A stretch of 48,926 nt of DNA, from assembly GCA_022843445.1 (NCBI GenBank), contig JALHNS010000007.1, positions 1-48,926 of the forward strand. Direction: 5' to 3'. Positions 2,894 to 44,965 of the stretch are shown here, piece by piece. Both the position numbers and the translations under genes were made by a program. The DNA is from Gemmata sp. Lineage in GTDB: Bacteria; Planctomycetota; Planctomycetia; Gemmatales; Gemmataceae. The notes beneath the pieces were generated by a model. The model saw only the letters and a program-made list of their open reading frames with translations. It was not told the DNA's origin and made no database searches. Position 1 is the first letter of the stretch. The number at the start of each line of letters is the position of its first letter.

Positions 2894-2925
2894 ACCCGCC
2901 GCGTGAGCGAGGGTGTTTTGTTTTC

Positions 2926-3061
2926 GCCCTGAAGGGGCGCTCTTCCTCAGCCCCGGCCACCGGCCGGGGTTGTTGCGTTGAAGGTCTTGCGTCCTGAAGG
3001 GACGCGCTTCGGATGTACCCCGGCCGATGGCCGGGGCTGAGGAAGAGCGCCCCTTCGGGGC
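2926..3061. repeat. Long inverted repeat with nested hairpins
   Basis: Arms at 2926-2970 and 3017-3061 (45 nt each) are reverse complements with two differences. Each arm also contains two smaller hairpins: GCCCT-GAA-GGGGC or GCCCC-TTC-GGGGC, and CCCCGGCC-NNN-GGCCGGGG. It fills the gap between two convergent genes, so bidirectional termination is plausible. The nested structure resembles paired REP-type sequences. The 46-nt centre holds a further small hairpin (GCGTCC..GGGACGC). Confidence 0.85.
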
Positions 3062-3075
3062 TGAAAAAGCGGTCG

Positions 3076-4529: not shown

Positions 4530-4645
4530 TTTATCGTGGCACGACGCTCCGCGTCGTGAAACCTTGGACCAACCGGCGAAGCGACTCTCGCCCGACCTCC
4601 GTTGTCGTCTCGTAAATGCGACGCGGAGCGTCGCACCACGATAAA
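4530..4645. repeat. REPIN-like inverted repeat with compensatory arms
   Basis: Arms at 4530-4556 and 4619-4645 (27 nt) are reverse complements with two differences. Read in the same sense, each arm starts TTTATCGTGG and continues as an 8-bp hairpin with a TCC loop: CACGACGC-TCC-GCGTCGTG in one and TGCGACGC-TCC-GCGTCGCA in the other. The two arm differences (CA to TG) are matched on the opposite side of each hairpin. GTGG directly at the hairpin foot is a REP-like feature. It lies between two convergent genes. Confidence 0.85.
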
Positions 4646-11581: not shown

Positions 11582-11708
11582 TTCACAGGGTGCGCTGCGC
11601 GACCCTGTGCTTTGGGATGTAACCCCTTCGGGGTACAAACCAGTCTTCTGCCTTTACCCCGAAGGGGTTGTATCGCAAAGCACAGGGTCGCGCAGCGTAC
11701 CCTGTGAA
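11582..11708. repeat. Long inverted repeat, 54-nt arms
   Basis: Arms at 11582-11635 and 11655-11708 differ at about four positions and leave a 19-nt loop. Each arm holds two smaller hairpins: CACAGGGT..ACCCTGTG and ACCCC-TTC-GGGGT or its GAA counterpart. It occupies most of the gap between the second VWA gene and the DUF4175-like gene, so transcription through the cluster must cross it. Confidence 0.9.
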
Positions 11709-19531: not shown

Positions 19532-19634
19532 ATCGTTACATGCCTTGCCGCGCGCGGCGCGCACGGACCCGCGAATCGATTTCCGAAAACGGAAACGCGA
19601 GCGGGATGGGGACAAGTGTTGGCTTGTCCGCGTC

Positions 19635-19768
19635 GGCCGCACAGGGCTTCCGCCCTGTGCTACGGTAGGCGACCCGCTCCGCGGGTGCTCAGACAGAAAG
19701 GCGCTCGAATGTCTTTCCGCCCCGGAGGGGCCGGCTATCGTAGCACAGGGCGGAAGCCCTGTGCGGCC
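19635..19768. repeat. REPIN-like inverted repeat with GTAG feet
   Basis: Arms 19635-19664 and 19739-19768 are perfect 30-nt reverse complements. Each arm is itself a hairpin, GCACAGGGC-TTCC-GCCCTGTGC or its complement, with GTAG at the inner foot. The loop contains ACCCGC-TCC-GCGGGT. It lies between the MoxR cluster and the divergent gene at 19786. Confidence 0.88.
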
Positions 19769-19785
19769 CACGCGGAGCGGACACG

Positions 19786-29992: not shown

Positions 29993-30089
29993 GAGTAATG
30001 CGCTCGCTCCGCGAGCGGCCATTGCTGCTCGCAATCACCAAAACGACACTGCACCGCGAATGGTCGCTCGCGGAGCGAGCGACCTACTC
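29993..30089. repeat. REPIN-like inverted repeat, GCTCCGC type
   Basis: Arms 29993-30023 and 30059-30089 (31 nt) are imperfect reverse complements. Each holds a hairpin around TCC or GGA: CGCTCGC-TCC-GCGAGCG and GTCGCTCGC-GGA-GCGAGCGAC. The second arm, read on the minus strand, has GTAG at its foot. It begins 2 nt after the frr stop. Confidence 0.82.
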
Positions 30090-30145: not shown

Positions 30146-33124
30146 ATGCGTTCCATCCGCGCCGTTACCGAACTGTTCCCGCGTGCCGCGACGCACGGAC
30201 TCACTTCCGCGCAAGTGAGCGAAAGCCGCGACCGGTTCGGCGCGAACCGCCTCACGCCCCTCCCGCACGAGCCCGCGTGGGCGAAGTTCCTCGCCAAGTT
30301 CGACGAACCGATCATCAAGATTCTGCTCGCCGCGTCGCTTCTCAAGTTGGTCGTCGATCTGTTCGAAAGTTCGGCGGTCGCGGGTGCGATCGGCCTCGCG
30401 GCGTGCGTCGCGCTGTTCGCGGTGTCGGCCGTGGCGAAACTCGGCGAGTGGCTCCCGGCGACGGCGTTCGCGCTGGCCGGCGCGCTGTTCGGGGTCAGCA
30501 TCGTCGTCGGGCACCCGTCGTTCGAGGGGTTGGCCGTCATGCTCGCGGTCGGCCTCGCCACGGGGGTCGCGTTCCTCAGCGAGTACCGGAGCGACCGCGA
30601 GTTCGAAAAACTGAACGAGGCCAAAGACGCGCTGCAAGTGAAGGTGGTGCGTGACGGGGCCGTTCACACCGTCCCGCTCGAAGACGTGGTCGTCGGCGAC
30701 TTGGTGGCGCTGGAAATGGGCGACGAACTCCCGGCCGACGGGCGCTTCGCGCGCGCCAACGAGGTGTTCGTCGATCAGTCGCTGATGACCGGCGAGAGCG
30801 AGCCGGTGCGCAAACTCGCGGCCGGTACCGACGACACCGCCGACGGCCCGGAGCAACCCGGGTGCGCGTTCCGCGGCACGCAGGTGGTGGACGGCGCGGG
30901 GCAGTTGCTCGTTACGAACGTCGGCGACGACACGATGCTCGGTCAGATCGCGCGGCGCCTTTCGGCCGGCGAACCGGAAGCCGAAGGCGAATCGCGCGAG
31001 GCGCGCGTGCAGCGCAAGCTCACCGTCTCGAAAGCGAGTACGCCGCTTCAAGAGAAGCTCGCGGTACTCGCGGGCACCATCAGCAAAATCGGGTACGCCG
31101 CGGCGGCGCTCATCTTCGTCGCGCTGCTCGCGCGCGGGCTGTGGGTCGGCGAAGTGCGGTTGCCGGCGGAGGGCGAAACGGCACGCGCCGCGGCGCTCGC
31201 GAGCACGAAGGCGCTGCTCTCGTACTTCGTGTACATGGTCATCGTGATCGTCGTCGCGGTGCCGGAAGGGTTGCCGATGAGCGTGACCGTGTCGCTCGCG
31301 CTCGCGTGGCGCAAGATGAGCGCCGCGAACTCGCTGGTGCGGCAACTGGTGGCGTGCGAAACGATCGGCTCCGCGACCGTGATCTGCACCGACAAGACCG
31401 GCACGCTCACGCAGAACAAGATGACCGTGTCGCGCGTCGGCCTCGGCACCGCGTTCGCCGAGAGCGGCCCGCTCGACTGCCCGGACCGCGGCCCGCTCTG
31501 GTGGATCGTCGCCAACAGCGGCGCGAACTCGACCGCGAACCTCGAATCGAAGAACGGCAAGCTTCTGGTGGTCGGCAACAGCACGGAGGGTTCGCTGTTG
31601 CAGTGGCTGAAAGCGGGCGCGTGGGTAGGCGAAGTCCCGCACGACTATGGCGAACTGCGGGACCGCTTCCCGCTGCTGTACCAGATTCACTTTTCCTCCG
31701 ACCGCAAGCGGATGACGAGCGTGGTTCGCGCGAACGGCGGCGCGGCGGTGCTCGTGAAGGGCGCACCGGAACAGGTGCTCGCGGCGTGCCGGTACGTGCT
31801 CGGTACCGACGGCACGCGGCGCGAACTGACCGACGACCTGCGCGTCGCGATCCGCGGGCACATCGCCGCGGCGGCAAGCGCCGCGATGCGCACGCTCGCG
31901 TTCGCGCACGCCGAGTTGCCCGCGGATTTCCCGCAAGACGAAGACGCGATTCACGCGCGCCGCGCCGACCTCGAAGCGGAACTCGTGTGGGACGGCTGGG
32001 TGGGTATCCGCGACCCGCTCCGCGACGACGTGAAGGGGGCCATCGCCGAGTGCCGCGCCGCGGGCATCGAAGTGAAGATGATTACCGGCGACACCATCGA
32101 GACCGCGAGCGCCATCGCCCGCGAAATCGGCCTGCTCGATTCGCCCGACGCACTCGCCCTCACGCACGCCGAATTCGCCGCGCTGAGCGACGACGAACTG
32201 CTCGACAAATTGCCGCGGTTGCGGGTGCTCGCGCGCGCGCTGCCCGCGGACAAGTACCGCATGGTGAAACTGCTGCAACAGCAGAACCACGTGGTCGCGA
32301 TGACCGGCGACGGCACCAACGACGCGCCCGCACTGAAGCGCGCCGACGTGGGCCTCGCGATGGGCATTTCGGGCACCGAAGTGGCGAAAGAGGCGAGCAA
32401 GATCGTGCTGCTCGACGACGCCTTCGGCACCATCGTGCGCGGGGTGATGTGGGGCCGCGCGCTGTACGAGAACATTCAGCGGTTCGTGCAGTTCCAACTG
32501 ACCATCAACGTGTCGGCGCTGCTCATCGCACTCATCGGGCCGTTCTTGGGCCTGAAGCCGCCGTTCACGGTGCTGCAACTGCTGTGGATCAACGTCATCA
32601 TGGACACGTTCGCGGCCATCGCGCTGTGCAGCGAGGCGCCGCGCGCGAACCTGATGCAGCGGCCGCCGAAGCGCCGCGACGAGACCATCATCACGCGGGC
32701 CATGCTGGGCAACATCCTCGTGACCGCCGGGTTCTTCGTCATCGTCATGGTGGCGCTGTTACTCGGCATGGAGTACGCCGGTTGGTTCGAGGGCGACGGC
32801 GCGCGCTCGGGCGAGTTCCCGGACCTCACGGCGCGGCAGGTAACGATCTTCTTCACCGCGTACGTGTTCTTCCAAGTGTGGAACCAGTTCAACTGCCGCG
32901 CGCTGCGCCCCACCGAGAGCGGCCTGACCGGGGCGCTCGCGAACCCGCGGTTCCTCGCCATCGGCGCGCTCACGGTGGTGGGCCAAGTGCTCATCGTGGC
33001 GTTCGGCGGAGACTCCTTCGCGGTCGAACCGCTCGCGCTACTCGACTGGCTGGTGATCGCGGTCGCGACGACGAGCGTGCTGCTGTTCGCGGAAGTGGCG
33101 CGCCGCGCGCGCGCGGCGGTGTAG
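30146..33124 (+). CDS. Calcium-type P-type ATPase
   Basis: 992 residues. Phosphorylation site D416 lies in CTDKTGTLTQNKM. The actuator loop has MTGESEP, the nucleotide domain KGAPEQVL, the hinge MTGDGTNDAPALKRADVG. Helix 4 VAVPEGLP and helix 6 LWINVIMDTFAAIAL fit Ca2+ pumps of the PMCA/SERCA-like class. The N-terminal membrane region has an extra hydrophobic pair (about 80-125) between the expected first and second helices. It exports divalent cations at the cost of ATP; exact specificity is inferred. Confidence 0.92.
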   Translation: MRSIRAVTELFPRAATHGLTSAQVSESRDRFGANRLTPLPHEPAWAKFLAKFDEPIIKILLAASLLKLVVDLFESSAVAGAIGLAACVALFAVSAVAKLGEWLPATAFALAGALFGVSIVVGHPSFEGLAVMLAVGLATGVAFLSEYRSDREFEKLNEAKDALQVKVVRDGAVHTVPLEDVVVGDLVALEMGDELPADGRFARANEVFVDQSLMTGESEPVRKLAAGTDDTADGPEQPGCAFRGTQVVDGAGQLLVTNVGDDTMLGQIARRLSAGEPEAEGESREARVQRKLTVSKASTPLQEKLAVLAGTISKIGYAAAALIFVALLARGLWVGEVRLPAEGETARAAALASTKALLSYFVYMVIVIVVAVPEGLPMSVTVSLALAWRKMSAANSLVRQLVACETIGSATVICTDKTGTLTQNKMTVSRVGLGTAFAESGPLDCPDRGPLWWIVANSGANSTANLESKNGKLLVVGNSTEGSLLQWLKAGAWVGEVPHDYGELRDRFPLLYQIHFSSDRKRMTSVVRANGGAAVLVKGAPEQVLAACRYVLGTDGTRRELTDDLRVAIRGHIAAAASAAMRTLAFAHAELPADFPQDEDAIHARRADLEAELVWDGWVGIRDPLRDDVKGAIAECRAAGIEVKMITGDTIETASAIAREIGLLDSPDALALTHAEFAALSDDELLDKLPRLRVLARALPADKYRMVKLLQQQNHVVAMTGDGTNDAPALKRADVGLAMGISGTEVAKEASKIVLLDDAFGTIVRGVMWGRALYENIQRFVQFQLTINVSALLIALIGPFLGLKPPFTVLQLLWINVIMDTFAAIALCSEAPRANLMQRPPKRRDETIITRAMLGNILVTAGFFVIVMVALLLGMEYAGWFEGDGARSGEFPDLTARQVTIFFTAYVFFQVWNQFNCRALRPTESGLTGALANPRFLAIGALTVVGQVLIVAFGGDSFAVEPLALLDWLVIAVATTSVLLFAEVARRARAAV

Positions 33125-33131
33125 CCCCAGA

Positions 33132-33237
33132 GTAGTAGGCACGCTCCGCGTGCCGTGTGTTCGGGCCGATTCAGCTGTCCAACTGTGCGAGATTCTGCCC
33201 GCGCACCGCAGAACGGCACGCGGAGCGTGCCTACTAC
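33132..33237. repeat. REPIN-like element, copy 1
   Basis: Perfect 25-nt inverted arms at 33132-33156 and 33213-33237. Each arm is GTAGTA followed by the hairpin GGCACGC-TCC-GCGTGCC (or the GGA complement). The same arms and a similar loop occur at 43553-43663. It lies between the P-type ATPase and the ferredoxin-like gene. Confidence 0.93.
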
Positions 33238-33253: not shown

Positions 33254-33643
33254 ATGGCCGAATCGAACGAGAAGCTCGCGGGCATCGCCGAGAAACTGCT
33301 GATCGGGCAGTTCCACCGGCACGTGTTCCTGTGCGCGGGCGACGCCTGTTGCGCCGGCGTGGGGCGCGAGGCCGCGCAAGCCGCGTGGGACGCGCTCAAA
33401 GACATTTTGAAAGAGAAGCACCTGTCGCTGGCGACCGGGCCGTGCGCGTGCTACCGCACGAAGGTCGGGTGCCTGCGCGTGTGTACCGGCGGCCCGGTGA
33501 TGGTGGTGTACCCGGAAGGGACGTGGTACGGGAACATGACCGCGGATCGTATCCCGCGGTTCGTGCAAGAGCACCTGATTGAGGGGAAGCCGGTGGAAGA
33601 GTGGGTGTTCGCGCGCAACCCGCTGCCCACCGCCGACGCCTAA
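33254..33643 (+). CDS. Thioredoxin-like [2Fe-2S] ferredoxin
   Basis: 129 residues. The cluster-binding Cys pattern is CAGDACCAG near residue 28 and CACYRTKVGCLRVCTGGPVMVVYPEG further on. The fold is that of the thioredoxin-like [2Fe-2S] ferredoxins (NuoE-related). GAGG precedes the ATG at 33254; the open frame upstream runs through the palindrome. A single-electron carrier in the cytoplasm is likely; no partner reductase is adjacent. Confidence 0.88.
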   Translation: MAESNEKLAGIAEKLLIGQFHRHVFLCAGDACCAGVGREAAQAAWDALKDILKEKHLSLATGPCACYRTKVGCLRVCTGGPVMVVYPEGTWYGNMTADRIPRFVQEHLIEGKPVEEWVFARNPLPTADA

Positions 33644-40946: not shown

Positions 40947-43541
40947 ATGCTCCGCGCCACGCTGCTCGTCGCGCTCGCCGTGCTCGCCGCACGCGCCGAC
41001 GACAAACCGGCCCCGAAGGGCGACCCGAAGCCGGTGTTCCCCGGCCCCACGAAGGACGGGTTCCTGCTGCCCAACGGTTGGCACCTCACTCCCGCGGGCA
41101 AACAGGTCGAAATCGCCGACCTGCCGCTGAACATCGCGCCGCTCGCGGACAACAAACACGCGCTCGTCACGACCAACGGGTTCAACCGGCACGAGGTGTC
41201 GCTGGTCGATCTCGGCACCGGCAAGGTGGTCGCGAGCGAGTGGGCGCGCCAAAGCTGGTTCGGGTTCGCGCTGAACAAGGCCGAAGACAAGCTGTGGTGG
41301 TCCGGCGGCGGCAACGGGATGTTGCACACGTTCGACATGAAGGAGGGCAAGTTCGCGCGCACCAGCGCGAAGGAAATCAACCCCGCGGACCTGAAGTTGG
41401 AAGACGTGCTCAAGATCGCCGACGAGGTGAAGAACGCGAAGACCTTCAAGAGCGGGTTGGCACTCGACGAGACGCGCGGCACGCTGTTCGCGCTCGACAT
41501 GCACTGGTCCGAGAAGGTGGACGGCAAGCAGGCGCTGCGCGACGGGCGCGTCACGGCCATCGACCTCAAGACCGGCAAGCCGGCGCGTACGGGGCAGATC
41601 GGCGGGCGGCCCTACGATGTGCTCGTCGGCCCCGGCGGGCACTTGCTGTACGTCTCCGATTGGGCGCACCGGCAGGTGCTCGCGGTCGATCCGACCGAAC
41701 TGCGCGTGGTGGCGAAAATCCCGGTCGGCGAGCACCCGAACCAGATGGTGCTGCACCCGAAAGACGGGCGGCTGTTCGTGGCGTGCGCGTCGAGCAACGC
41801 GGTGTACGCGATCGACACCAAGCGCGGGGTCGTGACCGAAGTGATTCACACGGCACTGTTCCCCAAAGCGCCGGAGGGCACCACGCCGGACGCGGTGGCG
41901 CTGTCCCCGGACGGCAAGACGCTGTTCGTGGCGAACGCGGACAACAACTGCGTCGCGGTGGTGGACGTGGAGAAGGCGAACGAGAGCATCGTGAAGGGCT
42001 TCATTCCGACGGGCTGGTACCCGACGGCGGTCGCGGTCACGCCGGACGGCAAGAACCTGCTCGTGGGCGTCGGGAAGGGCAACCAGAGCAAACCCAACCC
42101 GCTGTTCACCAAAGAGGAGCTTGAGAAGAAGGAAAAGGACGAGGTGAAGCAGATCGCTCGGCGGCTGATGCCGTACCCGTACATCGGGACCACCCTCAGC
42201 GGCGCGCTCTCCATCGTACCGGTACCGGACGAGAAGCAACTGAAGGAGTACACGGCGCAGGTGTACCGCAACTGCCCGTACGCCGACGGCCTGCTCACCG
42301 CGGCCCCGAACAAGGAGAAGACCGCGATCCCGACCCGCGTCGGCGACGAATCGCCGATCAAGTACGTCATCTACGTCATCAAAGAGAACCGCACCTACGA
42401 CCAAGTGTTCGGCGACCTCGCGGCCGGGCCGAACCCGAAGGGCAACGGCGACCCCACGCTGTGCATGTTCCCGCGGAAAGTCACGCCGAACCACCACAAA
42501 CTCGCCGAAGAGTTCGTGCTGCTCGACAACCTGTATTGCAACGGCCAAGTGTCCCGCGACGGGCACCCGTGGAGCACCGCGGCCTACCACACGGATTACA
42601 TCGCGCGCGACTGGCACCTCACGTATTCCGCGCGCAAGGGCGTTGAGGACGACGACGAGGGCAACCTGTCGCGCCCGCCGTCGGGCTACCTGTGGGACGC
42701 CTGCAAGCGGGCCGGCCTCAGCTACCGCAGCTACGGCGAGTACGGCAGCCGCGTGAGCGACGGCATGGGCGGCCTGAAGATGGAAGGCCGCGTGCCGGGC
42801 CTCGTGGGGAAGATGTGCCCGGACTACGGCATTCCGAAGGCGAAGGGCACGCGCCCCCGCGACACCGACAACGTGGAGGTGTTCCTGAAGGAGTACAACC
42901 AGTTCGTCAAAGACAAGACGATGCCGCGGTTCGTGATTATGAGCCTCGGCGAAGACCACACCGACGGCACCCGGGTGGGCGCGTTCACCCCGCAGGCGTG
43001 CGTCGCGAGCAACGACCTCGCACTCGGCAAACTGGTGGAAGCGGTGAGCAACGGGCCGCTGTGGAAGGAAACCGCGATCTTCGTGATCGAGGACGACGCG
43101 CAGAACGGTCCGGACCACGTGGACGCGCACCGCACGGTGGGCCTCGTGATCTCGCCGTACACGAAGCGCAAGTTCGTGGACAGCACGCAGTACCAAACCG
43201 TGAGCATGATCCGCACGATGGAGCTGATTCTGGGCCTGCCGCCGCTGAGCCAGTACGACGCGGCGGCGCGTCCGATGTTCAACAGCTTCACCGACAAAGC
43301 CGACCTGACCGCGTACAAGCACGAGCCGGCGCAGATCGACCTGAACGCGAAGAACGACAAGTTGTCGTTCGGGTGGGAACTGTCGGAGAAGATGGACTTC
43401 AGCGAGTACGACAAGATCAACGACTTCGAGTTGAACTACGTGCTGTGGCACGCGGTGATGGGTAAGGACGCGCCCCAACCGCCGGCGGTGCGCCGGGCCA
43501 TCGCGTTCCGCTCCCAGCCGACCGCGAAGAACCAGAAGTGA
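40947..43541 (+). CDS. Exported beta-propeller/phosphoesterase fusion
   Basis: 864 residues. Signal peptide 1-17, a YncE-like propeller (about 30-400; NAVYAIDTKRGVVTEVI, GTTPDAVALSPDGKTLFVANADNN), then a phosphoesterase-family alkaline-phosphatase fold (about 470-830; YVIKENRTYDQVFGDL near 475, SLGEDHTDGT, IFVIEDDAQNGPDHVDAHR). The Asp/His metal ligands are in EDDAQNG and VDAHR. The enzyme likely cleaves phosphoesters outside the membrane; the propeller may recognise substrate. A REPIN-like element follows. Confidence 0.9.
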   Translation: MLRATLLVALAVLAARADDKPAPKGDPKPVFPGPTKDGFLLPNGWHLTPAGKQVEIADLPLNIAPLADNKHALVTTNGFNRHEVSLVDLGTGKVVASEWARQSWFGFALNKAEDKLWWSGGGNGMLHTFDMKEGKFARTSAKEINPADLKLEDVLKIADEVKNAKTFKSGLALDETRGTLFALDMHWSEKVDGKQALRDGRVTAIDLKTGKPARTGQIGGRPYDVLVGPGGHLLYVSDWAHRQVLAVDPTELRVVAKIPVGEHPNQMVLHPKDGRLFVACASSNAVYAIDTKRGVVTEVIHTALFPKAPEGTTPDAVALSPDGKTLFVANADNNCVAVVDVEKANESIVKGFIPTGWYPTAVAVTPDGKNLLVGVGKGNQSKPNPLFTKEELEKKEKDEVKQIARRLMPYPYIGTTLSGALSIVPVPDEKQLKEYTAQVYRNCPYADGLLTAAPNKEKTAIPTRVGDESPIKYVIYVIKENRTYDQVFGDLAAGPNPKGNGDPTLCMFPRKVTPNHHKLAEEFVLLDNLYCNGQVSRDGHPWSTAAYHTDYIARDWHLTYSARKGVEDDDEGNLSRPPSGYLWDACKRAGLSYRSYGEYGSRVSDGMGGLKMEGRVPGLVGKMCPDYGIPKAKGTRPRDTDNVEVFLKEYNQFVKDKTMPRFVIMSLGEDHTDGTRVGAFTPQACVASNDLALGKLVEAVSNGPLWKETAIFVIEDDAQNGPDHVDAHRTVGLVISPYTKRKFVDSTQYQTVSMIRTMELILGLPPLSQYDAAARPMFNSFTDKADLTAYKHEPAQIDLNAKNDKLSFGWELSEKMDFSEYDKINDFELNYVLWHAVMGKDAPQPPAVRRAIAFRSQPTAKNQK

Positions 43542-43552
43542 GTGCGTCTTCA

Positions 43553-43663
43553 GGGTAGTAGGCACGCTCCGCGTGCCGTGTGCTCGGGCCGCATCAGTAA
43601 ACCAACTGAACGCACGGCTTCTCCGCGCGCTGCGGAACGGCACGCGGAGCGTGCCTACTACCC
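43553..43663. repeat. REPIN-like element, copy 2
   Basis: Perfect 27-nt inverted arms at 43553-43579 and 43637-43663. The inner 25 nt are the same as in 33132-33237. The loop begins GTGCTCGGGCCG where copy 1 has GTGTTCGGGCCG, and CCAACTG recurs in both. It starts 12 nt after a stop codon. Confidence 0.93.
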
Positions 43664-43768
43664 TGCGCGCCCTCACATCTTCCCCGCGGCGCGTTCACCT
43701 TGTTCCGCGGTTCCGCGCGCTCGTACAATGTCCGCTACGTCCCGAGGCGCGAACGGTTCCGCACGCAC

Positions 43769-44965
43769 ATGGCCCAGCACACGCCGAGCGCCGAACGGCC
43801 CAAACGGGTCGCGCTACTCGGCTCCACCGGGTCCATCGGCACGAGCACGCTCGACGTTGCGCGGCACCTGCCGCACCGCGTCGAAGTCGTCGGCCTCGCG
43901 GCGCACTCGCGCTGGGAGCAACTCGCCGAACAGTGCCGCGAGTTCAAACCGGCTGTCGCGGTTCTGTGCGACGCCGAAGCGTTCGCGCGCGCGGATCGCA
44001 CGCAGTTCCCGAAGGGAACCGAACTGCTACACGGCGAAGACGCGGTTCGCAAACTCGTCACGGCCACCGAAACCGATGTCGTGGTTTCGGCGGTGGTCGG
44101 CGCGGCCGGGCTGAACGGCACTTGGGCCGCGCTTGATGCAGGTAAGACGGTCGCGCTGGCGAATAAGGAAACGCTCGTCGTCGGTGGGCCGCTCGTCACG
44201 GAACTCGCGGCCAAGCGCGGCGCGAAGTTGCTTCCGGTGGATAGCGAACACTCCGCGATCTTTCAGGCGCTCACCGGGCACACCGCGGCCGACGTGAGCA
44301 AGGTGGTTCTCACCGCGAGCGGCGGGCCGTTTCGCGGGAAGCGCGCCGCCGATCTCGAACACGTCACCCCGCAGCAGGCGCTCAAGCACCCCACTTGGCA
44401 GATGGGGCCGAAGATTACCATCGACTCCGCGACGCTGATGAACAAGGCGCTCGAAGTGATCGAAGCGCGGTGGCTGTTCGGCCTGACGGCCGACCAAATC
44501 GACGTGATCGTTCACCCGGAGTCGGTGGTTCACTCGTTCGTCGAGTTCGCGGACGGCTCCGTGCTCGCGCAACTTTCGCCGCCGGACATGCGGCTGCCGA
44601 TTCAGTTGGCACTCCTGCACCCGGAGCGCACCGGCGGGCCGGCGAAGCGGCTGAACTGGCAGGAACTGCGCGCGCTCACCTTCGAACAGCCCGACCGCGA
44701 AACGTTCGCGGCTCTCGACCTCGGCTTCCGTGTGGCCCGCGACGGCGGCACCACCGGGGCCGTGCTGAACGCGGCCAACGAAGCCGCCGTCGGCCGGTTT
44801 CTCTCAAACGATTTGGCCTTTTTGGACATCGCGCGGTGCTGCCGCGCGGTGCTCGACGCGCACGACTACGAACCGCGCCCCACGCTCGAACGGCTGCTGA
44901 AGCTGGACGGCTGGGCGCGGCAGGAGGTTGCGAGTTGGACCCGAACGCGAACGGCAACCCGGTGA
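43769..44965 (+). CDS. dxr: 1-deoxy-D-xylulose 5-phosphate reductoisomerase
   Basis: 398 residues, normal length. The NADPH site is [15 protein letters not shown] at 16-30. Further signs are [61 protein letters not shown] and [12 protein letters not shown]. It catalyses the first committed step of the MEP isoprenoid pathway. Its end overlaps rseP by 31 nt, a common neighbour pair in bacteria. Confidence 0.97.

Follow-up and report, generated by a model that had tools for sequence, protein, structure and literature searches.

The window analysed here, that is, the whole stretch of 48,926 nt from Gemmata sp., contains two copies of a short palindromic element, both of them intergenic. Copy 1 lies between the stop codon of a gene ending at 33124 and the ATG at 33254, and copy 2 is located between a stop codon at 43539-43541 and dxr, whose ATG is found at 43769. 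The features of both copies are the following:

33132..33237, unstranded: REPIN copy 1, 106 nt, two inverted REPs and a 56-nt spacer
33132..33156, + strand: left arm of copy 1 (GTAG foot, TA spacer, 7-bp hairpin, then GT)
33213..33237, - strand: right arm of copy 1, inverted REP (hairpin 33215-33231)
33128..33129, + strand: CA dinucleotide 3-4 nt 5' of GTAG in copy 1, candidate cleavage site
43555..43661 (core), unstranded: REPIN copy 2, 107 nt, with perfect arms extending to 43551-43665
43551..43579, + strand: left arm of copy 2 with CAGG flank (hairpin 43561-43577)
43637..43665, - strand: right arm of copy 2, inverted REP (hairpin 43639-43655)
43551..43552, + strand: CA dinucleotide 3-4 nt 5' of GTAG in copy 2, candidate cleavage site

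The arms measure 25 nt in copy 1 and 29 nt in copy 2, show 100% complementarity in both and are separated by 56 and 57 nt, respectively. The arms of the two copies are identical to each other, and the spacers are alike in parts only. The REP of both elements is GTAGTAGGCACRCTCCGYGTGCC, of the 23-nt GTAG type, and the arm folds into a 6-nt foot (GTAGTA), a 7-bp stem and a 3-nt TCC loop, as represented by the left-arm hairpin of copy 1 (GGCACGC-TCC-GCGTGCC, 33138-33154). The initial annotation, which had described this arm and assigned the same element to both loci, agrees with these data, as two copies of 106-107 nt with perfect inverted arms are present at 33132-33237 and 43555-43661; the extent that it gave for the second copy, 43553-43663, does include the element and is longer than the core by two paired bases at either end. 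When folded as single-stranded DNA, the two elements reach z-scores of -8.6 and -11.0, far better than shuffled sequences. Their geometry (GTAG, 2 nt, 7 bp and TCC) falls within the REP rules of PMC6006769, namely GT[AG]G located 0-2 nt 5' of the hairpin, a basal stem of 7-20 bp, a loop of 2-5 nt and a GC-rich base, and corresponds to the short REPs described there, in which GTAG lies 1-2 nt from the stem. An Rfam search with the element gave no match. Downstream of copy 2, the stretch at 43700-43735 (TTGTTC ... TACAATG) is conserved upstream of dxr in most congeners despite the differing preceding gene, which suggests that it is the dxr promoter; copy 2 sits just upstream of it.

From the perspective of copy number, the window itself holds 10 matches to GGCACGCTCCGCGTGCC at up to three mismatches, compared with 1.9 expected, and no shuffle reached 10. 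The genome of origin (G000; 7.39 Mb in 636 contigs, 94.6% complete) contains 174 arms (91 + 83) matching GTAGTAGGCACGCTCCGCGTGCC at up to three mismatches, far beyond the two copies known at the outset, and the reversed pattern searched in the same genome at the same threshold gave 0 matches. Of the exact arms, 100 were listed; 70 of these are arranged in 35 inverted pairs, of which 25 measure 105-108 nt, with only one pair of same-direction neighbours and no divergent pair, and about 0.5 close neighbours in any orientation would be expected. The GC-rich window does hold many weaker inverted repeats, which would speak for chance as the origin of the elements; the 174 arms against none in the reversed control, and the fixed spacing of the pairs, refute this origin, whose probability is practically nil. 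A 14-nt segment that follows the left arm, GTGTGTTCGGGCCG, and about 8 nt preceding the right arm are common to most copies, and the middle of the spacer is variable. Since inverted pairing at a fixed length, conserved ends and a variable spacer reproduce the arrangement reported for REPINs in PMC3116915, the elements constitute a REPIN population of the GTAG superfamily, with roughly 80 scattered REPINs in this genome, where several contigs terminate at a REPIN. According to a heuristic assignment of gene context, an open frame runs through 21 of 57 other copies.

Within the family Gemmataceae, the REP is present at up to one mismatch in 23 of 95 genomes and 9 of 39 genera, with 1 to 293 copies, and it is absent from all sampled genomes outside this family. 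Among other carriers, G010, G004, G006 and G001 contain 91, 60, 51 and 28 copies, respectively. Congeners and other genera of the family share the REP apart from a compensatory change in one stem pair, which is G-C in most copies of the own genome and A-T in congeners; the A-T pair is kept in seven arms among the sampled own-genome copies.

The site of copy 1 allows a comparison with relatives. In nine congeners with conserved gene order both flanking genes are kept and the element is absent, the gap amounting to 13-60 bp in eight of them, compared with 132 bp including the REPIN in the own genome; the ninth holds an unrelated inverted repeat. The site is empty even in G010, G004 and G006, despite the copies that they carry elsewhere. 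As the same gap is empty in nine syntenic congeners, the element entered this site in the own lineage, and gene-order comparison thus shows an insertion that postdates the split from these congeners, in line with the empty sites that the initial annotation had proposed to look for. The site of copy 2, upstream of dxr, is uninformative in this respect, the upstream gene being different in all congeners.

Regarding the partner transposase, GTDB genomes yielded 37 RAYT loci, mainly from Planctomycetes and Verrucomicrobia, and RAYTs with related REPs are also present in congeners. The hairpins in the flanks of these loci mostly combine a GTRG foot with a TCC loop and vary in stem sequence, and at least one such hairpin is found at 20 of the 29 RAYT loci with a full ORF. 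Hairpins of this type number 75 within 500 bp of RAYTs of the clade, whereas 92 kb of other sequence contain 4 and reversed sequence contains 0. Two cognate RAYTs, P0006 and P0007, were identified in two other genera; they are 57% identical, with 217 aa in G077 and 215 aa in G075, and each of their genes is bordered on both sides by exactly the Gemmata REP, GTAGTAGGCACACTCCGTGTGCC, so that the RAYT flanked by the same REP that had been sought does exist, in related genera and not in the own assembly. Another RAYT, P0002, has its own REP, GTAGTCATCACGC. That P0006 and P0007, differing at 43% of positions, are accompanied by the same 23-nt REP suggests that REP and RAYT co-evolve tightly.

P0006 and P0007 form a clade with 100/100 support within the group of RAYTs from Planctomycetes and Verrucomicrobia, and keep the HUH and single-tyrosine motifs (NHxH and YIxxNP) as well as the W-Q...D-H..R residues, described in PMC6006769 for GTAG recognition. 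Their matches to REP_Tyr_transpos (NF047646) reach 72.5 and 65.9 bits, just below the cut-off of 80. An assignment to TnpA-REP subclass 2.5 (RAYT group 3) was rejected, as this subclass presents DH[LF]H, WQ and YI[VI]ANP with a median length of 151 aa, compared with NH[AV]H, YIA[ED]NP and 215-217 aa in the two proteins. With subclass 2.7 ([ND]HVH, WQ, YI[LR][NQ]NP, about 213 aa, long REPs) they agree only in part by this comparison of motifs, in length and WQ but not in the tyrosine motif and the short REP.

In the own genome, a search with Pfam Y1_Tnp, NCBIfam REP_Tyr_transpos and clade profiles found no RAYT flanked by the REP. Three candidates were discarded: a gene on contig C241 is IS200-like and has other ends; a RAYT on C142 (L032) has another REP, its frame being broken by one TGA, and adjoins its own inverted pair with GCGGCCCCTGCGGGGCC hairpins; and an apparently intact RAYT on C172 (L118) is flanked by REPs with a 10-bp stem, GGCACAGGCTnnnnAGCCTGTGCC, and represents a separate REPtron of the own genome. 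At least one RAYT of this genome, L032, therefore looks decayed. RAYTs of the P0006 clade are likewise absent from G010 (marked as 100% complete) and G001 (96%). As the assembly is fragmented and several contigs end at REPINs, the absence from the own genome may reflect assembly loss. A cognate RAYT in the same genome is usual for REPINs, and is not required for a repeat to be one.

The window holds further inverted pairs. A second REPIN with TCC loops, at 4540-4635, has arms GTGGCACGACGCTCCGCGTCGTG and GTGGTGCGACGCTCCGCGTCGCA, and exactly these two variants flank the RAYT L363 in G090, so that its cognate RAYT is likely to reside in another genus. A third inverted pair with TCC loops, GTAGGTCGCTCGCTCCGCGAGCGACC, at 29993-30089, is similar to the REPs beside a RAYT of G006 (L072, contig C146). 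Additionally, two long inverted pairs at 11582-11708 and 19627-19776, with arms of 54 and 49 nt that are 92-93% complementary and contain two hairpin-like segments each, resemble inverted pairs near IS200-like genes in congeners.

The region outside GTAG is also conserved: among 127 arms, 94% have A at position -3 and 73% have C at -4. Given that TnpA-REP is reported to cut at CT or CA, selected through GTAG (PMC8266576), CA is a candidate cut site. All these features lead to the proposal, which we hold with high confidence, that the elements are REPINs, that is, inverted pairs of a 23-nt GTAG REP, non-autonomous and copied in trans by a Y1 HUH RAYT/TnpA-REP. The REPIN/RAYT reading made initially is thus borne out by the inverted pairs at fixed spacing, the empty site and the RAYTs flanked by the REP in two genera. 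According to this proposal, each arm would fold into a hairpin when the strand turns single, and the RAYT would recognise the TCC loop and, guided by GTAG, cleave at a dinucleotide close by, probably the CA located 3-4 nt upstream; excision or copying of the paired element in single-stranded form would follow, and then its joining to another site, in most cases a short gap between genes. The activity would have been supplied by a RAYT of the P0006/P0007 clade in the ancestor of the Gemmata genome, whose assembly now lacks it.

An origin as a MITE of an IS200/IS605 element or a DDE transposon, instead of a RAYT-driven REPIN, is very improbable. The own genome does encode an IS200-like TnpA (L031, G000:C241:1-2133; motifs DHVH and YIARQEEHH), whose ends recur in a short derivative inside the window; the sequence of these ends is, however, different, the GTAG foot, 7-bp stem and 3-nt loop match the REP rules of PMC6006769, and in the cases found the REP flanks RAYTs and not IS200 genes. 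The derivative itself, an inverted-repeat element at 2914-3072 that matches both ends of L031, looks like a short non-autonomous derivative of this transposase. The tyrosine motif of L031 resembles that of TnpA subclass 1.2, which is given without REPs in PMC6006769, and inverted pairs also lie close to several genes of congeners in which this motif occurs.

As for the age of the copies, of 93 arms that are partners of an exact arm, 66 are exact as well, equivalent to a divergence of about 1.9% per site, whereas the middles of the spacers show a pairwise identity of only 59%, compared with 49% after shuffling. In a sample of 53 copies, which favours exact arms, the best spacer pair is 91% identical and there are no near-duplicate spacers. 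This difference between arms and spacers could also be explained if the elements were host-maintained RNA or DNA hairpins (transcription terminators, stabilisers of mRNA 3' ends, or sites for gyrase or other proteins), kept by selection on each copy and not by transposition, and the low number of copies between divergent genes (3 of 51, by heuristic gene context and against a small baseline) and the own genome without a cognate RAYT point in the same direction. Nevertheless, the gap that is empty in nine congeners, the REP on both sides of a transposase gene in two genera and the patchy distribution argue against such hairpins, which are an unlikely explanation of the family, although old copies may have a secondary host role.

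For the REPIN population itself, the divergence of the spacers and the lack of a cognate RAYT in the assembly disfavour a very recent amplification. These data would fit an old and slow population that is maintained because intact ends are selected for, and PMC8049555 models such a population and considers diverse spacers normal; they would fit equally if the host had selected for the arms once the RAYT was lost. The statement of the initial annotation that the family is active or was recently so can be retained in part: the insertion after the split from congeners and the predominance of G-C over the congeners' A-T pair speak for it, but the assembly has no cognate RAYT, and the lack of near-identical spacers among the sampled copies speaks against a very recent duplication. 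It is conceivable, albeit rather doubtful, that a population of about 80 elements with near-invariant arms persists in lineages whose own RAYT has been lost, in which case either the host would select for the arms or a non-cognate RAYT would serve them. Since some genomes have the RAYT and others do not, REPIN persistence becomes testable by comparing them, and REP recognition is likewise testable in the approximately 20 RAYT loci from Planctomycetes and Verrucomicrobia in which the GTRG foot and the TCC loop are fixed and the stem varies.

The RAYT/REPIN system is thereby extended by a matched protein-repeat pair in Gemmataceae. The literature searched contains no description of the Gemmata REPIN family, of its distribution in Gemmataceae or of its RAYT clade; GTAG palindromic repeats of the PVC superphylum are known from Planctomycetes and the verrucomicrobium O. 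terrae, with GTGG variants (PMC3733652), and the sequence of the family may already stand among those GTAG families. Among characterised systems, the REPtron Sm of Stenotrophomonas maltophilia (RAYT group 3, TnpA-REP subclass 2.5; PMC8266576) shares with it a 23-nt REP, a perfect short stem, a 3-nt loop and the GTAG foot, although its stem is of 8 bp and its loop GCT, in contrast to 7 bp, TCC and an additional 2-nt spacer between GTAG and stem in Gemmata, and its RAYT, of about 151 aa, carries DH[LF]H, unlike the 215-217 aa and NH[AV]H of the RAYTs associated with the Gemmata REP. The GI-GIII REPINs of Pseudomonas fluorescens SBW25 (PMC3116915) likewise consist of REPs in inverted doublets of a fixed length, whose ends are conserved and whose spacer is diverse; they differ in REP sequence and RAYT group, and their genome encodes three RAYTs, whereas the Gemmata assembly has no cognate one. 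Finally, the BIMEs and TnpA-REP of E. coli (subclass 2.2, PDB 4ER8) resemble the Gemmata system in the GTAG foot and in the W-Q and R guide-contact residues, with a weak sequence match, and are distinguished by a long, bulged stem instead of a perfect short one. The Gemmata family thus adds a further, unexceptional case to a type of bacterial mobile DNA that was already known.
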